A stretch of DNA of 35,362 nucleotides. Source: Bacteroidales bacterium. Its GTDB lineage: Bacteria; Bacteroidota; Bacteroidia; Bacteroidales; UBA932. The position numbers and the translations under genes are program-made. Of this stretch, positions 4,445-11,369 are shown piece after piece. Every line of letters starts with the position of its first letter. Positions within the stretch are counted from its first letter, which is position 1. The DNA is taken from assembly GCA_017423025.1 (NCBI GenBank), contig JAFPGC010000004.1:1-35362 (forward strand), given 5' to 3'. The notes under the pieces are model-generated. The model had not been told where the DNA came from. It made no database searches and saw nothing but the letters and a program-made list of their open reading frames with translations.

Positions 4445-4465
4445 GTACCCCCGCTCGGAATCGAA
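4445..4465. repeat. attL: 21-bp direct repeat
   Basis: An exact 21-base copy, beginning gtacccccgctcgg, of 11297-11317. It reproduces only the last ~20 bases of the tRNA gene, not a full tRNA, as expected for the distal attachment site of an integrase using the tRNA 3' end. Flanking bases differ on both sides. Confidence 0.9.
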
Positions 4466-4499
4466 ATTATTTATATCAGCGAAAACCGTTGTTGCGCCG

Positions 4500-4579
4500 T
4501 GTTATCTATAATGTTTTTAGTAACATATTATTTTACAATATGTTATCTATAAAATTAGACGCTTCTATACTTTAGAAGC
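4500..4579. repeat. Cluster of direct and inverted repeats beside attL
   Basis: This intergenic stretch holds a 12-bp direct repeat TGTTATCTATAA (4500-4511 and 4541-4552), a perfect 9-bp inverted repeat TAACATATT/AATATGTTA (4521-4529 and 4537-4545), and a 7-bp inverted repeat GCTTCTA/TAGAAGC (4561-4567 and 4573-4579). The position between core att site and integrase is where integrase arm sites, Xis sites and integrase operators normally lie. The specific roles are inferred. Confidence 0.6.
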
Positions 4580-4611
4580 ATAATCACCCAACTACAATTA
4601 TCTACATTTAA

Positions 4612-4639
4612 CACGCCAAAAATTTGATATTTTGGCGTG
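4612..4639. repeat. Inverted CACGCCAAAA pair over the integrase promoter
   Basis: A perfect 10-bp inverted repeat: CACGCCAAAA (4612-4621), 8-base spacer, TTTTGGCGTG (4630-4639). It overlaps the region just upstream of the integrase -7 box. The same CACGCCAA word occurs twice more near the right end (11221 and 11232), so it may be an integrase arm-type site as well as an operator. Confidence 0.65.
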
Positions 4640-4654
4640 CATTGGTTATCTTTG
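4624..4654 (+). promoter_or_regulatory. Integrase promoter
   Basis: TTG at 4624-4626 and TATCTTTG at 4647-4654, a perfect -7 box with a 20-base spacer. Transcription would start around 4660, which rules out the upstream TTG at 4632 as the integrase start. The CACGCCAAAA inverted repeat overlaps this promoter. Confidence 0.7.
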
Positions 4655-4670
4655 CATAAACCCAATGCGT

Positions 4671-6014
4671 ATGGCAACTATTTATTATACTCTTTCAAGA
4701 AAGATTGACAAAGTAACCGGACAGAGTCAAGTCTTGGTTCGTTTTGTGGTTGGTAGCCGCATTAACCAGCGTGGCAAAGCTCCAATTTTCGTACAACCGC
4801 AGTTCTGGAACGCAAAAAAACAACTAGCCACAATCCCTCAATACCGTCTAATGAATGACGAGCAAAAGAGGCTTATTGAATACCTAAACGGAGTAAACGA
4901 AACACTCTCAAAGCTAAAGAATATAATATCAAGTGCCTATAATAGTGAAAGTTCCGACAAGCAGACACTACCCCCCGACTGGCTTACTTCTGTAATAACT
5001 TCGTGCTTCTTCCCGGCGCAGGAAGAAAAGCCAGCCCCGGTGACATTATCCCAGGCTTTTGACTATTATTTAGAAACTCACGCTCTATCGGAAATACGCC
5101 AAAGGAATATCCAGGTAGTTTCAAGAAGCCTTGCTAGGTACAAAAAGTTCAAAGGCGCGACACTTGAACTTGATTCGATTACAGCAGAGGTAATGAAAGA
5201 CTTTGAGAATTACCAAAGAGAAGAAGCAAGTATTGTTGCCAAACGGCCAGATTTGCTTAAAGTGTGTCCCGAAAGTCGCTCCATAGATGAACGCGGAGAG
5301 AACACTATTATAGGAAGGATGCGAATTGTACGCGCCGTTCTCAACTGGGCATATAAGGAAGACTTGACTAAGAATATCGAATTTACAAAATACAAGATGC
5401 AATCTTGCATTTATGGAACTCCCTACTACATTAGTATTGACGAGCGAAATAAGATATATCGGATGAATCTTTCCCGCCACCCAGAATTAGCAATACAAAG
5501 AGACATTTTTGTTTTTCAATGCCTAATAGGTTGCCGCGTTTCAGACCTTATCAATCTTACTAAAGATAATCTGATTGGCGGCGCGATTGAGTATATTCCC
5601 ACAAAGACGAAAGATGAAGTTGGCGAAATAGTTCCTACTGTCCGCGTACCACTTAACTCAATCGCAAAAGAGATTGTTGAAAGGTACAAGTCAGATGAAA
5701 GGGCCTCACTCCTGCCATTCATTTCACCTCAAAGATACAATGATTCAATAAAACGAATCTTCTTAGCGGCGAGACTTACGAGAACGGTTACTGTTCTTGA
5801 CCCACTTACACGGAAGGAAACGAAGAAGCCACTAAACGAAATTGCCAGCAGTCACATTGCTCGAAGAACATTCATTGGCAACCTCTACAAGAAAGTCAAA
5901 GACCCCAACCTTATTGGGTCAATGTCGGGTCACTCCGAAGGTTCACGAGCATTTAGTCGCTACCGTAATATAGATGAAGAAATAAAGAAGGAACTTGTTA
6001 AAGAATTAGAGTAA
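4671..6014 (+). CDS. int: Tyrosine recombinase (integrase)
   Basis: A 447-residue phage-type integrase that would recombine the 21-bp core at the tRNA 3' end. The N-terminal part carries an Arm-DNA-binding-like domain (ATIYYTLSRK ... GKAPIFVQPQFW), the middle a SAM-like core-binding domain, and the C-terminal part the catalytic domain. Catalytic residues are visible: R289 (GCRVSDL), H395-x-x-R398 (SSHIARRTF), H421 (SGHSEGS) and nucleophile Y431 (SRYRNID). This is the full R-H-R-H-Y set, so the enzyme should be active. ATG 4671 was chosen because the -7 box ends at 4654; ATG 4665 is also possible. The gene lies nearest attL, transcribed inward, and is followed after 2 bases by the next gene. 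Confidence 0.95.
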   Translation: MATIYYTLSRKIDKVTGQSQVLVRFVVGSRINQRGKAPIFVQPQFWNAKKQLATIPQYRLMNDEQKRLIEYLNGVNETLSKLKNIISSAYNSESSDKQTLPPDWLTSVITSCFFPAQEEKPAPVTLSQAFDYYLETHALSEIRQRNIQVVSRSLARYKKFKGATLELDSITAEVMKDFENYQREEASIVAKRPDLLKVCPESRSIDERGENTIIGRMRIVRAVLNWAYKEDLTKNIEFTKYKMQSCIYGTPYYISIDERNKIYRMNLSRHPELAIQRDIFVFQCLIGCRVSDLINLTKDNLIGGAIEYIPTKTKDEVGEIVPTVRVPLNSIAKEIVERYKSDERASLLPFISPQRYNDSIKRIFLAARLTRTVTVLDPLTRKETKKPLNEIASSHIARRTFIGNLYKKVKDPNLIGSMSGHSEGSRAFSRYRNIDEEIKKELVKELE

Positions 6015-6016
6015 GT

Positions 6017-6703
6017 ATGGCAACAATACAACAAATTAGGGACAAAATACTTAGCGGAGACTACCCAAGCTCCGACTTCTGGAACGACTGTATTGAAAAC
6101 GGAGAGATAGAAAATATACTCTTTGACTTAACACTAGAAAGTATAACAAGTTGGAATGACAATCGAAAGAGAACCCTTCTTGATATGTCAATAGACTTAA
6201 TTAAGAGCTGGTTTCCATTTCGGTACAGGCAATATACACAACTTGGTAGAGGCCCATATCAATACAAGATAAAAAACGGTAAGTTTTTAAGGGATAGTGT
6301 TGGATTAAAAGAACTTGAAACCCCACCTGTGAGATGTCTCATATTGACTAATTACGACAAGGATAGACTTGAAGGCATATTTAACAAATTAGTTGAGAGG
6401 GGGTATATTGATGGAACTAGTAACGATGCACTACCGAACTTTCTAAATATGTTTTATACAAACACTCCGCAGGGCAAAGTTATCTGGATTAAGAAAGGGA
6501 GCAAGAACAATGGCGAGATAAATAAGTATTCATGGCTCATGTTTCTTCGCCTACTTGGAGTAAATGAGAATGAGTGGGAACTATTTACGGCTGAACTATC
6601 AAATATAGAAAAGTGTTCAGATAAAGTTACCAAATTGGCTAAGGCTCCTACCGGTAAGGCGGAAGAAATATATAACGAATTGAAAAACATTTTAGGGGTA
6701 TAG
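6017..6703 (+). CDS. Unknown 228-residue protein following the integrase
   Basis: It starts 2 bases after the integrase stop, so it is cotranscribed. It has no signal peptide, membrane segment or catalytic motif I can name. Residues ~115-185 (LEGIFNKLVERGYIDG, then a Phe-rich stretch, then KVIWIKKGSK, then SWLMFLRLLGV) follow a pattern I associate with uncharacterised proteins encoded near integrases in Bacteroidales mobile elements: a helical part, an 'F/Y-I-D' turn, an 'I-x-W' strand and a final helix. That resemblance is from memory and weak. It could be an element-specific regulator or cargo. The AT-rich composition matches the rest of the element. Confidence 0.75.
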   Translation: MATIQQIRDKILSGDYPSSDFWNDCIENGEIENILFDLTLESITSWNDNRKRTLLDMSIDLIKSWFPFRYRQYTQLGRGPYQYKIKNGKFLRDSVGLKELETPPVRCLILTNYDKDRLEGIFNKLVERGYIDGTSNDALPNFLNMFYTNTPQGKVIWIKKGSKNNGEINKYSWLMFLRLLGVNENEWELFTAELSNIEKCSDKVTKLAKAPTGKAEEIYNELKNILGV

Positions 6704-6804
6704 GGTAAAAAGTAACTACTAAAATATGCAATTTAACTATTTGTAATAGGGTGTGAGTGTTACTCGCGCCCTATTACCGTATAGTATGGGTGTTGTTGTT
6801 TGTA

Positions 6805-6812
6805 TATCTTTG
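6805..6812 (+). promoter_or_regulatory. -7 box upstream of the small HTH operon
   Basis: TATCTTTG, a perfect -7 element, 23 bases before the ATG at 6836. No convincing -33 TTG is seen at the usual spacing. It probably starts the long plus-strand operon of the element, in which genes from 6836 to 10295 follow with small gaps or overlaps. Confidence 0.55.
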
Positions 6813-6835
6813 TTGAGGTTGTTAGAGATAGAACT

Positions 6836-7159
6836 ATGGAACAATTACTCAAAATCTTACAAGATGCTCCAAACATTTCTGTCAATGTTCGTGGGGCTGA
6901 CCTAATTTCATTTGGGCGCGACCTTATCGCTCAGGCACAGCAACAGAAAGAAAACGAGAAGACGGCAGAACCGCAAGACACACTGCTTGATTACAAGGCA
7001 GCACTAGAACTGTTCGGGGTAAGTGGGCAGACTTTGTGGCGGTGGAGGAAGGCTGGTTATATTCACCCAGTCCGCGTGGGTGGGAAACTGAAATACCGCC
7101 GTGCTGACTGTATTGAGATTCTTAACGGAGGAAAACATGGAACGGAAACGCACAACTAA
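6836..7159 (+). CDS. HTH_17/MerR-like DNA-binding protein (Xis-like)
   Basis: A 107-residue protein. The C-terminal half holds a MerR/HTH_17-type helix-turn-helix (LLDYKAALELFGVS-GQTLWRWRKAGYIHPVR, then KYRRADCIEIL), the fold used by excisionases and small regulators of Bacteroidales integrative elements. The N-terminal half is helical and Gln/Glu-rich. The ATG at 6836 is preferred over the in-frame TTG at 6800, which precedes the -7 box. It overlaps the next gene by 23 bases. By family knowledge it is likely a recombination directionality factor or a regulator; the sequence alone does not say which. Confidence 0.8.
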   Translation: MEQLLKILQDAPNISVNVRGADLISFGRDLIAQAQQQKENEKTAEPQDTLLDYKAALELFGVSGQTLWRWRKAGYIHPVRVGGKLKYRRADCIEILNGGKHGTETHN

Positions 7160-7364
7160 AATTGATTTGGTGCGTATGCACCTTGAATCAGGGCGAGCCA
7201 TAACGCCGCTATTAGCATTGCGGATGTATGGCAGTTTCTCCCTTTCAGGTATAGTATGTAAACTCCGTAGCCGTGGCCTCAATATCCGTACAGAACTTGT
7301 TGAAAATGAGGAAACTGGGGCCAGATTCGGCAAATATAGTCTGGTTAAAAAATCAAAATCATAA
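7137..7364 (+). CDS. Small winged-helix protein (HTH_39-like)
   Basis: A 75-residue protein starting at ATG 7137, one of the few starts here with a purine-rich ribosome-binding sequence (ggagga, ending ~5 bases upstream). The body TPLLALRMYGSFSLSGIVCK followed by LRSRGLNI resembles the small winged-helix domain common in phage and prophage genes, where the phrase 'ISPLEAL...YG..RLSARI..LR..G' recurs. It begins inside the 3' end of the previous gene and ends sharing one base with the next (TAATG), so translation is coupled. It is probably DNA-binding; its role in the satellite is unknown. Confidence 0.75.
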   Translation: MERKRTTKIDLVRMHLESGRAITPLLALRMYGSFSLSGIVCKLRSRGLNIRTELVENEETGARFGKYSLVKKSKS

Positions 7365-7612
7365 TGAGAAAAGAGCAAGTAAAGTTTGACAGAGATTGGC
7401 TTAAAGAAGCCCTCAAAATTGAAGACAAGGAGCGCAGGAGTTTACTTCTTTTCACTTGTCTTGGTAAAGTGCTAGCCTCACCACAATACGAAGCTGTAAA
7501 AGGGTTCGCGTGGCCCGAAGTGCAAGAGTTGTTTGACAGAACTTTGATTATTCCGATAACGCCAGGAAAAGATGGATTAATAACATGGAAAAGACAAAGA
7601 CAAAGAGATTAG
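7364..7612 (+). CDS. Small hypothetical protein, 82 residues
   Basis: The ATG overlaps the previous stop by one base and the end overlaps the following gene by 28 bases, so it is an integral part of the operon. The charged helical sequence (FDRDWLKEALKIEDKERRSLLLFTCLGKVL) shows no motif I recognise. Its position before a replication-type gene and a primase suggests a replication accessory or an element regulator, but this is only inferred from context. Confidence 0.65.
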   Translation: MRKEQVKFDRDWLKEALKIEDKERRSLLLFTCLGKVLASPQYEAVKGFAWPEVQELFDRTLIIPITPGKDGLITWKRQRQRD

Positions 7613-7899
7613 AAGACCGTCAATGGGTTCCAATTCACAAAGAAATCTGTCTGGCCGCGCTTGATGATTTTCAAGATAGCGAAGACGCTATGAATTTTCT
7701 CAGGGCCGTGTTTACTTACGCTATTACAGGTGAACTTCCCGAAGATTATGAATTTAGACCAAGTGTCAGACCAATGTGGCGATTTGCTAAAGAGAAGCTG
7801 GATGTATCAAACAAAAAGTTTCTTAACAGCCCCGGCCCTCCTACTGGAAGTCGAAACAACCCTAACGGGAGGGGCGGAAAAGAACTAACAGAAAACTAA
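7585..7899 (+). CDS. DUF6291-like phage replication-associated protein
   Basis: A 104-residue protein. The segment AMNFLRAVFTYAITGELPED, then RPMWRFAKEKLDVSNKKF, matches in outline a family of short proteins found just before replication genes in phages ('...FY.AI..Y...G..p......l..iF..ik..ld'). The C-terminus is polar (SPGPPTGSRNNPNGRGG), as is usual in those proteins. It overlaps the preceding gene by 28 bases and is followed by a CAAACCC-rich repeat and then the primase, a typical phage replication neighbourhood. The family assignment is from remembered pattern. Confidence 0.65.
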   Translation: MEKTKTKRLEDRQWVPIHKEICLAALDDFQDSEDAMNFLRAVFTYAITGELPEDYEFRPSVRPMWRFAKEKLDVSNKKFLNSPGPPTGSRNNPNGRGGKELTEN

Positions 7900-7930
7900 C
7901 ATACAACTAACAAAAATTAACAGAACTGAC

Positions 7931-7966
7931 AAATACAAACCCAAATACAAACCCAAACCCAAATCC
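7931..7966 (+). repeat. CAAACCC-rich tandem repeat before the primase
   Basis: Two exact tandem copies of AAATACAAACCC (7931-7942 and 7943-7954) are followed by AAACCC and AAATCC, ending 5 bases before the primase ATG. The strand is almost free of G. It may be an iteron-like origin element for the adjacent primase, or simply slippage-prone DNA of the kind seen after DUF6291-like genes. Confidence 0.6.
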
Positions 7967-7971
7967 AAACA

Positions 7972-8853
7972 ATGTATTCAAGTAGAATAGATGAGGCCAG
8001 CACCGGGAATGTGAGTCTTTTTAGAAGTTGCTTTGACAAGATTCCAGGCGAGACTATTTCCATTGAATCCTTCTTTACTGGTTATAGTGAGTCTAGAAAG
8101 AGGCGTGTCGAAATGGTTCGAGCTTGTCAAGATAAGGACGAGCAGAGAAAAACGAAGTTGAGGCTACCAGCAATCACACCCGCCGGGGTTTTCACGGTAC
8201 GCAGGACAAACTGTCTTCTTCGGTATTCTGGATATGCCGGAATAGACCTAGATAACCTAGAGGGAAGGACTGACTACATTAAAGACAAACTTTCTGGTTT
8301 TCCAGGTCTCGCGTATTGTGGTTTGTCTGTGAGTGGAACTGGCCTATTTGCCCTTATTCGACTCGCAACCCCTGAGCAATATGAATCACACCTTGAATCA
8401 ATCTTTGCCGACTTTTCAAGTATGGGGTTATACCCAGACCCAGCTTGTAAAGACATTACTCGCTTACGCATTGTAAGCTATGACCTCAACCCAATAATCA
8501 ATTTCTCTGTTTCGCCTTACAGAAAGTTGTCCGCACACCCCGCCGAAAAGACAGCAGCACCGCAACAGTTACACGGAGACGCGATAGCTGTACGGGTTGA
8601 GAAATGTATCAGACAGATTATTGAGAGACAAATAGACCTCACTAGCGATTACTCAACCTGGATTGTTCTTGCTTATGCTATCGGAAATCAGTTTGGAGAG
8701 GCTGGTAGGTCATATTTCCACGAGGTCTCACAGTTCTACCCGAATTATGACAGAGGCGAGACTGACCGAACCTATACGGCGTGCCTGAGGGGAAGTTCCG
8801 TCAATATAGGCACATTCTTCTACCATTGTAAGAGGGCTGGAATATACTGGTAA
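7972..8853 (+). CDS. BT4734/VirE N-type primase
   Basis: A 293-residue protein. Residues ~40-185 look like the BT4734/VirE_N archaeo-eukaryotic-type primase domain: the acidic motif GIDLDNL with D92 and D94, the SGTGLFALIRL motif around 121-131, and the DITRLRIVSYD segment at 161-171. Residues ~205-290 (DYSTWIVLAYAIGNQFGEAG, SQFYPNYD, then RGSSVNIGTFFYHCKRAGI) match a primase C-terminal (PriCT-like) domain. No P-loop helicase is fused or encoded nearby; related proteins in larger phages usually carry one. It would prime replication of the excised element and depend on host or helper-phage helicase. It is the central replication gene of the element. Confidence 0.85.
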   Translation: MYSSRIDEASTGNVSLFRSCFDKIPGETISIESFFTGYSESRKRRVEMVRACQDKDEQRKTKLRLPAITPAGVFTVRRTNCLLRYSGYAGIDLDNLEGRTDYIKDKLSGFPGLAYCGLSVSGTGLFALIRLATPEQYESHLESIFADFSSMGLYPDPACKDITRLRIVSYDLNPIINFSVSPYRKLSAHPAEKTAAPQQLHGDAIAVRVEKCIRQIIERQIDLTSDYSTWIVLAYAIGNQFGEAGRSYFHEVSQFYPNYDRGETDRTYTACLRGSSVNIGTFFYHCKRAGIYW

Positions 8854-8872
8854 CTCCATAGTTTATTAGAGT

Positions 8873-9043
8873 ATGAAGAACGACTGGTTTACTATTACTT
8901 TGGCTAGGCTTATAGAATCACTTCAAGAAAGATGTTTGGAGGCGTGGCCGATGTACGAAGATTTGCGTAGCGTAGAGCAAGAGTTAAGGCGTGAAGGTGG
9001 GGAAGTGTCACAATTGGAAGAAAGTGTTTTAAAGGCCAAATAA
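8873..9043 (+). CDS. Small hypothetical protein, 56 residues
   Basis: An ATG-started frame of 57 codons, 19 bases after the primase stop. The product (MKNDWFTITLARLIESLQER ... SVLKAK) is charged and helical and probably forms a coiled coil (VEQELRREGGEVSQLEESVL). It is in the operon direction with good spacing to both neighbours. A short hairpin-like sequence (aaaggcc...ggcccttt) overlaps its stop codon. No function can be assigned. Confidence 0.6.
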   Translation: MKNDWFTITLARLIESLQERCLEAWPMYEDLRSVEQELRREGGEVSQLEESVLKAK

Positions 9044-9111
9044 CGGCCCTTTAAATGGAAGTCGCGCCAACCTTCAAAAGCCAATGAGTGAAACAAAAAG
9101 ATACAACCTAT

Positions 9112-9528
9112 ATGAAACCTAAACTAAAACGATTCAAAGAAGTGGCGAACCAATGCGAAGGGAATATTAGCAAAATTGCCGATTCGTTAGGCGTAGGCCG
9201 TTGCACTGTTTACAGATGGATTGAAAGCGAAGCCGGATTTAAGGAGGCCATAGAAGAACAGCGCGGGAGGCTCTTAGATAAGTGCATAGAAACAGCCGGG
9301 ATTCTTGCAAATGGAGTTCCGAAAATTATTGAAGGCCCAAACGGGCCGATGCAAATGGGGTGGGCAGTCCCGCCAGACGGACAAACACTGCGCTATCTTC
9401 TTGGTACACTTGGAAGGAAGGAAGGATTTGGAGAAAGTGTAGATATTACAAGTAAGGGAGAAAGCATAAAGCCTGAAACACTAACAATAGAAGTGATTGA
9501 TAAAAGGGAGCAGGTTGATAACATATAA
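9112..9528 (+). CDS. Putative phage terminase small subunit (TerS)
   Basis: A 138-residue protein from ATG 9112 (a GTG at 9088 would add 8 residues). The N-terminus is a clear helix-turn-helix (CEGNISKIADSLGVGRCTV, then YRWIESE). The middle is helical, and the C-terminal half has PPDGQTLRYLLGTLGRKEGF followed by GESVDITSKGES, which follows the TerS pattern '...a.k..L.....GF.E+..vtskG...'. TerS recognises the packaging site and feeds DNA to the large terminase. No large terminase is encoded, so a helper phage's TerL would have to be used, exactly as in phage-inducible islands. The alternative is a transposase-type HTH protein; the match is from pattern memory, not a search. Confidence 0.6.
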   Translation: MKPKLKRFKEVANQCEGNISKIADSLGVGRCTVYRWIESEAGFKEAIEEQRGRLLDKCIETAGILANGVPKIIEGPNGPMQMGWAVPPDGQTLRYLLGTLGRKEGFGESVDITSKGESIKPETLTIEVIDKREQVDNI

Positions 9529-9538
9529 TTGAACGACT

Positions 9539-10135
9539 ATGGAAAAGAAAATTTTACGAACTGACAAAACGAAGGAACAAGAACTTAGAACCTCAACACA
9601 ATTCGCTTGCACTGTGCTGAATCGTTCTGTGTTTCCGATTGCTTGCGAGCTTGGCATGAGGATAGATTTACAGGACAAAGAAACGCTACAGGGGTATGTT
9701 AAGAATCTTTCAAGCATGAAAGAAGCATACACTGAAACAGCCGTAAATGGTGTTGATAATCCGGCATTAAAAAGGGTTGCTAAAGAGGTAACAGAAAAAC
9801 AATGGAATGAGGTTGCCAAAAAGTATGAGTTGCCAAATCCGTATATTTTAAACCAGATTTTTCCAGATACGCTGCGCTATGTGGATATAAAAGGTACATT
9901 TGTACAAGATGCAAAAGCGATAGCCAACAATGATGCAATTAAAGAAGCTTGTGCAATCTATGAAACAGAACAAGATGCACAGAAGAAAAAGGAAATACAC
10001 AGCCTTTGTGATATGCTTAATAGTGTGTTCAATGGGAATAGCCAACTATTTGCCGGATATGTTGTAATTACAAATGGTAGATTCTATCCCAAAGAGGGCG
10101 TAATTAACTACAAACCACTTTATAATGGAGAATAA
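9539..10135 (+). CDS. Unknown 198-residue satellite protein
   Basis: It begins 10 bases after the putative TerS gene. It is a soluble, mixed-charge protein with no signal peptide, membrane segment or known motif. It begins with a Lys/Glu-rich stretch, has a long helical centre and a C-terminal strand-rich part (QLFAGYVVITNGRFYPKEGV). In known satellites the gene beside terS often encodes packaging or capsid-redirecting functions that interfere with the helper phage; by position alone that is the most interesting hypothesis. Nothing in the sequence proves it. The next gene overlaps its end by 11 bases. Confidence 0.75.
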   Translation: MEKKILRTDKTKEQELRTSTQFACTVLNRSVFPIACELGMRIDLQDKETLQGYVKNLSSMKEAYTETAVNGVDNPALKRVAKEVTEKQWNEVAKKYELPNPYILNQIFPDTLRYVDIKGTFVQDAKAIANNDAIKEACAIYETEQDAQKKKEIHSLCDMLNSVFNGNSQLFAGYVVITNGRFYPKEGVINYKPLYNGE

Positions 10136-10295
10136 CAAAACACAAGAACAAGTTATAAATAACTTGGCAGAACTGGCAATAAGGGCAGTTGAAAAAGATA
10201 CCATGAGCGTAGCGGAAAAGTATGCACGCAAGTTTGGAACAACAGACGGAGAGGCAACAGACAAAGAGATAGAAGAACTAATGAAACGCTTTTAG
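10125..10295 (+). CDS. Small hypothetical protein, 56 residues
   Basis: An ATG at 10125, overlapping the previous stop by 11 bases, opens a 57-codon frame ending at TAG 10293-10295. The product (MENNKTQEQVINNLAELAIR ... EELMKRF) is charged and almost entirely helical by composition. It is the last gene of the plus-strand operon, ~95 bases before a rho-independent terminator. The function is unknown. Confidence 0.65.
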   Translation: MENNKTQEQVINNLAELAIRAVEKDTMSVAEKYARKFGTTDGEATDKEIEELMKRF

Positions 10296-10388
10296 CGTGG
10301 CGATATTGGCGGGCATTCCGTCAGTCCAAGCCGGGGGGATTCCCGGTAAGCAGTTTCGTTGCAAAACGCTTCTTGCGAGTGTTATTGT
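10296..10388. other. GC-rich structured non-coding segment in the satellite
   Basis: Between the last operon gene and the terminator lie ~93 bases that are much more GC-rich than the rest of the element. They include a CCGGG/CCCGG hairpin near 10335-10350 and the phrase aaaacgcttcttgcgagtg. No ORF is convincing. It could be a structured 3' UTR, a packaging (cos or pac-like) site or a remnant. Confidence 0.35.
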
Positions 10389-10425
10389 GGCCGGGGAGGG
10401 GTAGAAAATACCACCCGGCCCTTTT
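10389..10425 (+). terminator. Rho-independent terminator of the satellite operon
   Basis: Outer stem GGCCGGG (10389-10395) with CCCGGCC (10414-10420), inner stem GGTA (10400-10403) with TACC (10409-10412), then CTTTT. It closes the long plus-strand operon. Confidence 0.75.
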
Positions 10426-10441
10426 ATGTGATAACCTCAAC

Positions 10442-10475
10442 AAAAAAACACCCCGCGCTATCACAGCGAAGGGTG
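10442..10475 (-). terminator. Terminator of the minus-strand small gene
   Basis: On the minus strand CACCC...CGCT pairs with AGCG...GGGTG (plus-strand arms 10449-10459 and 10465-10475) and is followed by seven T residues (plus-strand A run 10442-10448). It lies downstream of the 10534-10734 gene. Confidence 0.75.
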
Positions 10476-10533
10476 CAAGAATAATGTTACACAAAAAATC
10501 GCGTTGGAAACGCTTTGGGGCTGTAATAATGTA

Positions 10534-10734
10534 TTATGGTTTCTCCGGTTGCCGCCCGTTGGCAAAATCAATGTATGTTTGACAGAGGCCGGAAACATAG
10601 GACAAGCGTTCAACTATTTCTGTAATATCGCTATCCTCAAATGGGCTGTAATCAAACTTGCTAAGAGTGTCAATGTTGTTCTGTAAGACTGCGATGTTTT
10701 CGCGCAGGGCTTTGATTGCTTCGTTAGTTTTCAT
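10534..10734 (-). CDS. Small minus-strand protein, 66 residues
   Basis: The sequence (MKTNEAIKALRENIAVLQNN ... GRQPEKP) is helical with heptad-like spacing, so probably a small coiled-coil protein. It has a textbook promoter (TTG, 19 bases, TATATTTG) and its own terminator, so it is a real gene transcribed alone. It is transcribed away from the XRE regulator across a 141-bp gap. In satellites and phages the gene opposite the repressor is often an antirepressor or the first lytic gene; here the role is unknown. The two plus-strand ORFs covering the same bases have no promoter and are rejected. Confidence 0.75.
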   Translation of the reverse strand: MKTNEAIKALRENIAVLQNNIDTLSKFDYSPFEDSDITEIVERLSYVSGLCQTYIDFANGRQPEKP

Positions 10735-10759
10735 AATGTATAAGTGCTATATTTTGATG

Positions 10760-10871
10760 CAAATATAAGGGTTTATTTCGATATTGCAATAGGTTAATAT
10801 GAAAATTTCCTAATGTTTTTGCAAAAATATAGTATAATACTTTGATACAAGCCCCAAATCAGCTATCTTTG
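10760..10871. promoter_or_regulatory. Divergent promoter and operator region (genetic switch)
   Basis: Minus promoter: TTG at 10787-10789 with TATATTTG at 10760-10767, 19-base spacer. Plus promoter: TTTG at 10841-10844 with TATCTTTG at 10864-10871, 19-base spacer. Two palindromes overlap or abut the -33 regions: ATTGCAAT (10783-10790) and AGTATAATACT (10831-10841). Back-to-back promoters with palindromes between a small gene and an XRE repressor resemble a phage lysis-lysogeny switch. Confidence 0.75.
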
Positions 10872-10875
10872 CACT

Positions 10876-11118
10876 ATGTTAATTAGAGTTAAACAAATAT
10901 GCTCCCAGAAGGGCATTACTTTACAAGAGCTTGCAAAGAGGCTGGGTATAGGCTACCAGGCTTTATATGAGTCTGCAACTGGGAACCCGTCATTAAAGAG
11001 GATTAGAGCGATAGCAGACGCGCTTGGGGTTGAGGTTACGGAACTTTTTGAAGCACCCAAAGAGGCTAGTATAATTTGCCCTCATTGTGGGAAGCCAATT
11101 ACAATTAAGGCTGAGTGA
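10876..11118 (+). CDS. XRE-family HTH repressor with C-terminal Cys pair
   Basis: An 80-residue protein. Residues ~5-58 are a complete Cro/C1-type helix-turn-helix (ITLQELAKRLGIGYQALYES, then PSLKRIRAIADALGVEVTEL). The tail carries CPHCGKPI, a CxxC pair that could form half of a zinc site in a dimer. The -7 box ends at 10871 and the ATG is at 10876, so the mRNA is probably leaderless, as for the lambda cI maintenance transcript. By family it should bind the palindromes upstream and control the satellite, equivalent to the master repressor (Stl-type) of a pathogenicity island. It is too short for a self-cleavage domain, so induction would need a helper-phage or host antirepressor. Confidence 0.85.
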   Translation: MLIRVKQICSQKGITLQELAKRLGIGYQALYESATGNPSLKRIRAIADALGVEVTELFEAPKEASIICPHCGKPITIKAE

Positions 11119-11131
11119 TAAAGATTTTTAC

Positions 11132-11214
11132 TATATTTGCATCGAGCTTGCTCAACCCGCGGCGTTTACGGTTAGATTCCGGTCGCAATTAGCCTCCATT
11201 TTGGGGGCTTTTTT
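11132..11214 (+). ncRNA. Candidate small RNA of the satellite
   Basis: A -7 box TATATTTG at 11132-11139 predicts a start near 11146. About 45 bases on there is a good terminator: AGCCTCC (11191-11197) pairs with GGGGGCT (11203-11209), followed by TTTTT. The predicted ~70-nt transcript has no reading frame worth noting, begins near a GAGC-TT-GCTC mini-hairpin, and contains a T-loop-like phrase (ggttagattccggt). No -33 TTG is present, so promoter strength is uncertain. The hairpin may simply terminate the XRE gene. Confidence 0.45.
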
Positions 11215-11220
11215 ATGTAT

Positions 11221-11239
11221 CACGCCAAAGTCACGCCAA
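11221..11239. repeat. Direct CACGCCAA pair near attR
   Basis: CACGCCAA occurs at 11221-11228 and 11232-11239 as a direct repeat, 58-76 bases from the right core site. The same word forms the inverted pair at 4612-4639 near the left end. Matching sites near both cores point to integrase arm-type binding sites. Confidence 0.65.
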
Positions 11240-11251
11240 TTTTGACAAACG

Positions 11252-11290
11252 AAAAACCCCAACAAGTTGAGGCTCAACAAGTTGGAGTTT
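11252..11290 (-). terminator. Element-supplied terminator downstream of tRNA-Arg
   Basis: A long imperfect hairpin (CCAAC...GTTGAG pairing with CTCAAC...GTTGG, 13 positions, 2 mismatches) flanked by A and T runs on both sides, so it works in either direction. It sits immediately 3' of the tRNA but inside the element. It replaces the original terminator now displaced to 4392-4443. Confidence 0.65.
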
Positions 11291-11296
11291 TATAAA

Positions 11297-11317
11297 GTAC
11301 CCCCGCTCGGAATCGAA
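11297..11317. repeat. attR: 21-bp direct repeat in the tRNA 3' end
   Basis: Exact match to 4445-4465. It covers positions ~54-73 of tRNA-Arg plus one base, i.e. the T-loop, the 3' side of the T-stem and the acceptor stem, leaving the tRNA intact after insertion. Confidence 0.9.
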
Positions 11318-11369
11318 CCGGGACCAACGGAACCGGAATCCGTTATTCTATCCTTTAAACTACAGGGGC
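11298..11369 (-). tRNA. tRNA-Arg (anticodon CCG)
   Basis: A 72-nt minus-strand cloverleaf. The acceptor GCCCCTG pairs with CGGGGGT (one G-U at each outer region), discriminator A. The anticodon arm is ACGGA/TCCGT with loop TTCCGGT, giving anticodon CCG for codon CGG. The T-arm CCCGG/CCGAG surrounds TTCGATT and has one C-A mismatch. The D-stem is weak (GTTT/GAAT). CCA is not encoded. The -7 box TAATTTTG on the minus strand at 11386-11393 drives it. It is the integration target of the satellite. Confidence 0.9.

Follow-up and report, generated by a model that had tools for sequence, protein, structure and literature searches.

Phage satellites are defined, in the glossary of one review, as non-phage elements that encode a mechanism favouring their packaging in phage particles (PMC11389934). 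The families named in the part of that review available to us are the P4-like elements, the phage-inducible chromosomal islands (PICIs), the capsid-forming PICIs (cfPICIs), the PICI-like elements (PLEs), the phage-inducible chromosomal minimalist islands (PICMIs) and marine and soil types, and none of them is said there to come from Bacteroidota. PICIs, according to the available sections of another paper, have a divergent regulator pair, with int on one side and the xis and replication genes on the other, and a typical size of ~15 kb (PMC6092414); further satellite literature was also consulted (PMC12946183, PMC12324425, PMC9006064). Other PICI traits are a primase/replication initiator module, in some cases a TerS without TerL, an att site that prophages never use, genes found in PICIs alone, and induction, interference and packaging that depend on a phage. 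Among the open-access titles and abstracts examined, a coverage that leaves subscription journals and most preprints outside, none reported a phage satellite of Bacteroidota. Here we analyse a 35,362-bp stretch of DNA from a Bacteroidales bacterium (positions 1 to 35,362 of contig JAFPGC010000004.1, assembly GCA_017423025.1; hereafter the window), which carries at positions 4445-11296 a 6,852-bp island that, judging from its sequence, is likely to be a minimal tailed-phage satellite. The island combines a tRNA-Arg site with direct repeats, a tyrosine integrase gene and a gene for a small terminase subunit (TerS), and no gene for a large terminase subunit (TerL), a capsid, a portal or conjugation was recognised in it. 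If this is true, a recurring compact satellite family in Bacteroidota, a main gut group, would extend phage piracy there and would supply a small set of uncharacterised genes.

The island and its insertion site

The island is an AT-rich insertion at the 3′ end of tRNA-Arg(CCG), bounded by exact 21-bp direct repeats, with a GC content of 0.38-0.45 against about 0.56 in the adjoining DNA. The repeats, the tRNA call and the GC content confirm a preliminary description of the locus, which had reported a 6.9-kb AT-rich insertion with exact 21-bp ends in tRNA-Arg. Left of the left repeat lie a hairpin and a T-run, as in the DNA that flanks the tRNA 3′ end in many relatives, and ahead of the right repeat comes island sequence with a separate hairpin (terminator scan), so that the element boundaries are sound. 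The island's own hairpin and T-stretch (window positions 11240-11296) reaches the 3′ end of tRNA-Arg, and the tRNA gene therefore seems to be given a new terminator upon integration. DNA of the tRNA/fabD region was matched in 48 of the 81 genomes of the host genus, the best 29 of which were compared at this locus: fabD was matched within the same 1.6-3.3 kb stretch in 26 of them and the element proteins in none (tblastn, E≤1e-3). The exonuclease gene to the left of the element is not close to this tRNA in genus relatives; it was therefore dropped as a flank marker, and for this reason no empty site flanked on either side as in the window was found among them.

Thirteen island proteins were scanned with Pfam, and ten of these also with PHROGs. 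No credible match to TerL, portal, capsid, lysis or relaxase families was obtained, and the lone structural names, two tail-completion models matching 40-odd residues of the primase-like protein (E=0.02 and 0.06), were taken as chance. No conjugation gene was recognised in the element. These results agree with the earlier claim that portal, capsid, tail, TerL, lysis, relaxase and conjugation genes are missing. The tyrosine integrase and the Xis-like and XRE regulators proposed at the same time are also borne out by family matches (Table 1), and the integrase has the R, K, HxxR and H...Y stretches that we take to be its catalytic motifs.

Identity of TerS

PHROG TerS families match the island protein encoded at 9088..9528 at E=3e-4 to 0.13, in its helix-turn-helix (HTH) region, so that the libraries alone are weak. 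The assignment as TerS is nevertheless well supported, because phage contigs have full-length relatives (about 54% identity) ahead of their TerL and portal genes, which places the putative small terminase of the preliminary description on firmer ground. In a 34-kb viral contig (L014), for example, the TerS relative (54%) is followed by TerL (PF04466 E=3e-16, PF17288 E=2e-12), an SPP1-like portal (E=2.5e-21) and an open reading frame (ORF) that is MuF-like by eye. With tblastn queries taken from L014, L017, L018, L030 and L031, a TerL match was obtained in 15 of the 26 distinct viral contigs that have a TerS relative, three of these 15 including self-matches; two contigs end inside terS (L015, L016), seven have a downstream ORF taken as TerL by eye (L130, L132, L134, L137-L140), and in two the downstream TerL was not resolved (L133, L135). 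TerL also lies beside a TerS relative at two Capnocytophaga genome loci, L009 and L011, the sequence of the former apparently being that of viral contig L019.

By alignment, an ATG at 9112 is a more likely TerS start than the GTG at 9088 chosen earlier. An AlphaFold model made with 12 sequences (mean predicted local distance difference test score 74, predicted template modelling score 0.51) has an HTH, a long helix, a beta hairpin and a tail that is disordered from about residue 109, in agreement with the domain plan given in the accessible part of PMC9611059. Among 50,697 phage records, the full TerS matched one, MT839454.1 (1529-1915, 38% identity), a 4.3-kb sequence from human faeces that has no annotation and is of a size that would fit a satellite fragment. 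A TerS fragment in a Muribaculum metagenome-assembled genome (L010:9992-10129) is 62% identical to the TerS of L029, one of the islands described below, over 34 residues; it is only a remnant among chromosomal genes, and L010 was rejected as an island. The TerL genes of L014 (11109-13418) and L012 (1630-3936) are split by an intein with a homing endonuclease, as indicated by Hint and LAGLIDADG matches for the first and by similarity for the second.

The TerS tail and the TerL N-terminus

The tail of the window TerS reads IEVIDKREQVD, and its version in the sister island L028 is VEIIDRREQVD. Several matches to the TerS query covered only the last part of the protein. Strict and loose back-translated tail motifs, scanned over 2.9 million viral contigs, gave 10 and 15 stretches, respectively, with a union of 19 loci. 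A TerL resembling that of L014 lies within 6.5 kb downstream in 18 of these, the weaker cases being L158 (a short stretch with a weak TerL match) and L156 (TerL 4.7 kb away). The N-terminal domains of the tail-bearing TerS proteins fall into five groups with no BLAST link at E 1e-3, comprising about 12 distinct TerS by eye.

When loci were picked by TerS similarity beyond the tail, five of 17 had both the tail and an IQTT-like TerL N-terminus and the other 12 had neither; when they were picked by the tail, three of them first matched by the TerS query in the tail only, all 10 had the IQTT-like N-terminus. The comparison left out truncated loci, L153 and most duplicates, and kept the near-duplicates L013/L014, L132/L134, L138-L140, L009/L011 and L143 (the contig of L019); the TerL start of L022 was accepted via a hand-added variant, and L031, with IQIS near the start of its TerL-like ORF, was scored as lacking the motif. 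L131 is an instructive case: its TerL shares 55% identity with the L014 protein but has a different N-terminus, and its TerS has no tail. According to the available text of PMC9611059, the TerS proteins of P22 and lambda bind TerL via their C-terminus, and in vitro residues 1-58 of P22 TerL are enough for binding to TerS residues 140-162. Given this precedent and the co-occurrence of the tail with the IQTT-like TerL N-terminus, IEVIDKREQVD is predicted to be a docking peptide, or hook, for a helper TerL. The tail match would make the helper class predictable from sequence, namely phages whose TerL begins with an IQTT-like peptide, and the tail offers a simple test of TerL recruitment by TerS. 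In the phage records the tail peptide had no tblastn match, short queries being weak there.

One of the 19 loci, L153 (IMGVR_UViG_2940202316_000002), has at 5780-5962 a 61-aa ORF made up of a short segment and the tail IEVIDSRDKVD, which could be a TerL decoy. By eye, HicA/HicB-like ORFs and an XRE protein with a C-terminal CPxCG motif of the window type lie nearby. The locus was first supposed to be a satellite; since the contig also holds a tape-measure-like gene, it is kept as a lead only.

orf198 and sister islands

Directly downstream of terS, the island encodes orf198, which occurs in six islands distributed over five host-family genomes: the window, L028, L029, L059 and two islands of genome G128. 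L028 (G245) is cut by the contig end, and its TerS, HTH_39 protein and orf198 are 58%, 63% and about 41% identical to those of the window. L029 (G194; tRNA-Glu, 18-bp repeat) and L059 (G095; tRNA-Pro, 49-bp repeat) are complete, at 7,091 and 7,914 bp, the latter with DUF5681 and VRR-NUC genes and no close TerS. The two G128 islands, beside tRNA-Asp and tRNA-Leu, are both contig-cut. A similar compact order recurs in islands at other tRNAs, consisting of int, an ORF, an HTH gene, a replication-type gene, a TerS or TerS-like gene and orf198. No capsid, portal, TerL or relaxase was found in three sister islands, of which three L028, five L029 and five L059 proteins were scanned and the rest judged by eye; together with the TerS synteny, this strengthens the satellite status that the preliminary description had put forward.

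A single-sequence search found orf198 in 3 of 299 family genomes, and a TerS search was positive in 8 of the 299. With a profile, orf198 was found in 4 of 239 family genomes, three of which are in the profile by construction, and in only the window's own genome among 393 drawn from the order, a draw with few genomes of the host family. The orf198 proteins of L029 and L059 are 18-23% identical to the window copy. In leave-one-out profile searches among 253 proteins, the five other members were each recovered at E 1.3e-15 or better, the best non-member having E 0.003. A profile of the window and L028 copies finds L059 (E 1e-10) and misses L029 (0.24) and the L164 island of G128 (1.9), so that recovery of the more distant copies depends on the wider profile. 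No match to orf198 was obtained in the 50,697 phage records or in two viral-contig scans, and comparisons with PDB, Pfam, PHROGs, PADLOC and NCBIfam gave nothing convincing.

Near the tRNA end of L164 lies a 67-aa ORF (1596-1796) with a C-terminus that looks, by eye, like a different kind of TerS tail (LSxEEL...), and which is possibly the mini-TerS of that G128 island. Three further islands, L055 (G272), L056 (G269) and L057 (G194), have int, an ORF and a BT4734-type primase without a TerS match, as well as, by eye, HTH_17-like and AAA-type ORFs. L055 and L056, in two different genomes, have the same chromosomal neighbours on their two sides, by eye a ychF-like and an endonuclease-like gene. 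The end-gene of L055 was often the best non-member in the leave-one-out searches (E 0.003 to 0.8); a relationship between orf198 and the end-genes of L055-L057 was rejected at a profile comparison probability of 0.2.

Other genes and candidate sites

The main operon runs from the HTH_17 gene through the HTH_39 gene, orf82, the DUF6291 gene, the primase-like gene, orf56, terS and orf198 to orf56b, with int and orf228 as a separate int-proximal pair and xre alone at the far end (Table 1). The plus strand carries int, the HTH_17 operon and xre, orf66 being the sole minus-strand ORF among those taken as genes, so the divergent regulators invoked earlier are not present. Of the VirE/BT4734-type primase, the BT4734-N and PriCT-2 domains were recovered; no helicase or initiator domain was recognised in the Pfam and PHROG scans. 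ORFs of ~190-280 aa occupy the position of orf228 in other islands without clear sequence similarity, and an alignment across islands was discarded as too weak.

Seven TTTG-N18-24-TANNTTTG sites, a pattern that we take to be the Bacteroidota promoter consensus, occur in the whole window against 0.62 expected by chance. Such motifs, together with the relatives, make the Bacteroidales host named in the preliminary description plausible. The repeat of CACGCCAA type has five copies in all in the window, against 1.5 expected. Repeats spaced 11 bp apart also lie near both ends of L029 (6536-6554, 13431-13449) and L059 (7690-7709, 15363-15382), single copies of these short repeats occurring elsewhere too; these repeats and those at the right end of the window island are probably integrase arm sites.

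Table 1. Annotated features of the island and its target tRNA gene, with positions in the window
Feature	Position	Strand	Basis or remark
Left attachment (att) copy, 21 bp	4445..4465		Exact repeat; duplicate of tRNA-Arg 3′ end
Inverted pair CACGCCAA...TTGGCGTG	4612..4639		Over int promoter, near left end; candidate operator or arm site for integrase/Xis
Promoter-like site TTTG-N20-TANNTTTG before int	4623..4654	+	Consensus match
Tyrosine integrase (int)	4671..6014	+	PF13102 E=8e-11, PF00589 E=4e-7, PHROG 1 E=8e-20
orf228	6017..6703	+	No family match; 2 nt downstream of int, in the place held by 'iolg' in PICMI
HTH_17 protein, AlpA/Xis-like	6836..7159	+	PF12728; PHROG 66 'excisionase and transcriptional regulator' E=4e-9
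Winged HTH (HTH_39)	7137..7364	+	Family match; homologue in L028
orf82	7364..7612	+	ORF, Pfam/PHROG-scanned
DUF6291 protein	7585..7899	+	Pfam
Primase-like protein, BT4734-N + PriCT-2	7972..8853	+	PF08800 E=4e-14, PF08707 E=3e-12
orf56	8873..9043	+	ORF, Pfam-scanned
TerS: HTH, long helix, beta hairpin, unstructured C-terminal tail	9088..9528, likely start 9112	+	Synteny, homologues, model
Predicted TerL-docking tail VDITSKGESIKPETLTIEVIDKREQVDNI	9439..9525	+	Motif scans, TerL comparison
orf198, island-family gene	9539..10135	+	Where phages have TerL or the gene preceding TerL
orf56b	10125..10295	+	ORF, Pfam-scanned
orf66	10537..10734	-	ORF, Pfam-scanned
Promoter-like site before xre	10841..10871	+	Consensus match
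XRE regulator, C-terminal CPHCG motif	10876..11118	+	PF01381 E=7e-10; repressor candidate
Two CACGCCAA copies 11 bp apart	11221..11239		Repeat scan; candidate right arm sites
Right att copy inside tRNA-Arg	11297..11317		Exact repeat; tRNA-Arg(CCG) 3′ end
tRNA-Arg(CCG), integration target	11297..11369	-	tRNA call

Proposed mode of action and helper

In the proposed cycle, the XRE repressor would keep the island silent until infection by a helper phage lifts the repression. The HTH_17 protein and the integrase, perhaps with orf228, would then excise the island, and the primase-like protein would start its replication using host or helper enzymes. The N-terminal HTH of the island TerS would bind island DNA, its C-terminal tail IEVIDKREQVD would dock on the N-terminus of an IQTT-like Terminase_3 helper TerL, and the helper motor would package the island. 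orf198 would most likely favour the island TerS over that of the helper, the role of Ppi in the Staphylococcus aureus pathogenicity islands (SaPIs), or adapt packaging, a guess from its position and conservation. A broader and more tentative proposal, to which we give somewhat less than an even chance, is that tail and N-terminus act together as an interchangeable docking code between TerS and TerL, by which satellites choose a helper class, with orf198 as a satellite-only packaging or interference factor. Phages would keep the code while swapping the DNA-binding domains of TerS, a family of 7-8-kb tRNA-integrated satellites in the host family would carry such codes, and the code of the window and L028 would select IQTT-like Terminase_3 helpers, possibly virulent phages, L029 and L059 having other tails.

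Several observations weigh against the satellite reading. No pac (packaging) site was identified, and a TerS profile compared by sequence with solved structures matched no TerS. Among the sister islands, L029 and L059 carry other tails, not of the IEVIDKREQVD type, the TerS-like gene of L059 is only the DUF5681 protein, with a sub-threshold tail-chaperone match (E=0.004), and neither G128 island has a TerS in the sequence present, both being contig-cut. No TerL match lies within 6.5 kb of the tail-bearing stretch of L153, and the association of tail and TerL could partly reflect common descent of one TerL clade. No helper was identified: the tail pattern was found in one of 299 family genomes, that of the window itself, variants such as that of L028 escaping the pattern. 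A TerL profile (PHROG 2) gave only weak matches (E 2e-5 to 6.5e-4; frames 317-540 aa long) in all six genomes searched, the host (87% complete) and five relatives. The same profile also rings in 11 of 14 control genomes, and the L014 TerL matches the PHROG 2 family at 7e-31 (in a different kind of search); the matches in the host and its relatives were tentatively taken as other ATPases. Since the tail pattern occurs only in the window and the TerL matches are weak, the helper may be a non-resident phage rather than a resident prophage, perhaps a virulent one as for PICMI, to the extent that such weak negative evidence allows.

Alternative explanations

The satellite reading was weighed against three others. 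The island could be satellite-like with a TerS that serves mainly to block helper packaging as a defence, its spread being vertical apart from rare transduction. Competition of such a TerS for TerL would indeed inhibit the helper, and the 61-aa ORF of L153 is little more than a tail. We regard this as unlikely, given that the island keeps an integrase and regulators, has its ORFs intact and carries arm-like repeats at either end, and that PADLOC found no complete defence system in it, the matches being to a regulator-type HTH and to a primase/VirE domain that is common to DRT (a reverse transcriptase defence type) and CRISPR-associated models.

Decay of a prophage that lost its structural genes and kept int, regulators and terS is slightly less probable still. 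In its favour, TerS and the regulators have a phage-like character, the integrase shares 47% identity with one from contig L030, which has a TerS and a TerL-like gene, and the XRE protein resembles one in phage contig L130 (36%). In contrast, the ORFs are intact, no remnant of TerL, capsid or portal was recognised, and the scans found no credible tail gene either. Decay is further disfavoured because orf198 islands of similar compact order and total size recur at other tRNAs, two of them complete at 7.1 and 7.9 kb, and because orf198 was not found in phage records or viral-contig scans. An integrative mobilizable element transferred by conjugation via an unrecognised origin of transfer (oriT) or relaxase is the least probable of the three: the TerS-less islands L055-L057 share the plan in the same family, so part of the architecture need not use phages, but the 13 proteins have no relaxase family match and the island has a TerS with a TerL-type tail, for which we know of no use in conjugation.

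Comparison with known satellites

The reading of the island as a satellite that would work like a PICI is retained. The observations of the preliminary description are confirmed and its interpretation is partly supported: 'PICI-like' fits the expected mode of working and not membership. Like PICIs of the SaPI type, the island has an integrase, an xis-like HTH protein, a primase homologue, a TerS without TerL and genes of its own, with no structural or lysis genes recognised. Of the PICI replication module, the primase-like domains are present, without a recognised helicase or initiator domain. Unlike PICIs, it has no divergent regulator pair, its main genes lying on one strand with XRE at the far end, it measures 6.9 kb rather than about 15 kb, it has no known interference or capsid-remodelling gene, and it belongs to another host group. 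Because two of the PICI features tested, divergent regulators and a size of ~15 kb, fail, the island is not filed as a PICI.

With the PICMIs of Vibrionaceae, as far as the available text describes them (PMC10803314), the island shares a size of about 6 kb, an int with a tightly linked ORF, a regulator of AlpA/HTH type and a primase, the likeness of orf228 to PICMI iolg being one of position. PICMIs differ in their fis-adjacent integration and their hosts, and no terS was found in them according to the same text, whereas the island lies at tRNA-Arg and has terS. The TerS and Ppi strategy of SaPIs, as presented in the accessible part of PMC6739421, offers a further parallel, in that the island's own TerS would be expected to use the helper TerL and a candidate interference gene lies directly downstream. 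orf198, which was not compared directly with Ppi or Rpp, matched no family of either name in the libraries scanned. With regard to the general definition of a satellite, the island has a TerS with a TerL-type tail, which would be its means of entering the particles of a helper.

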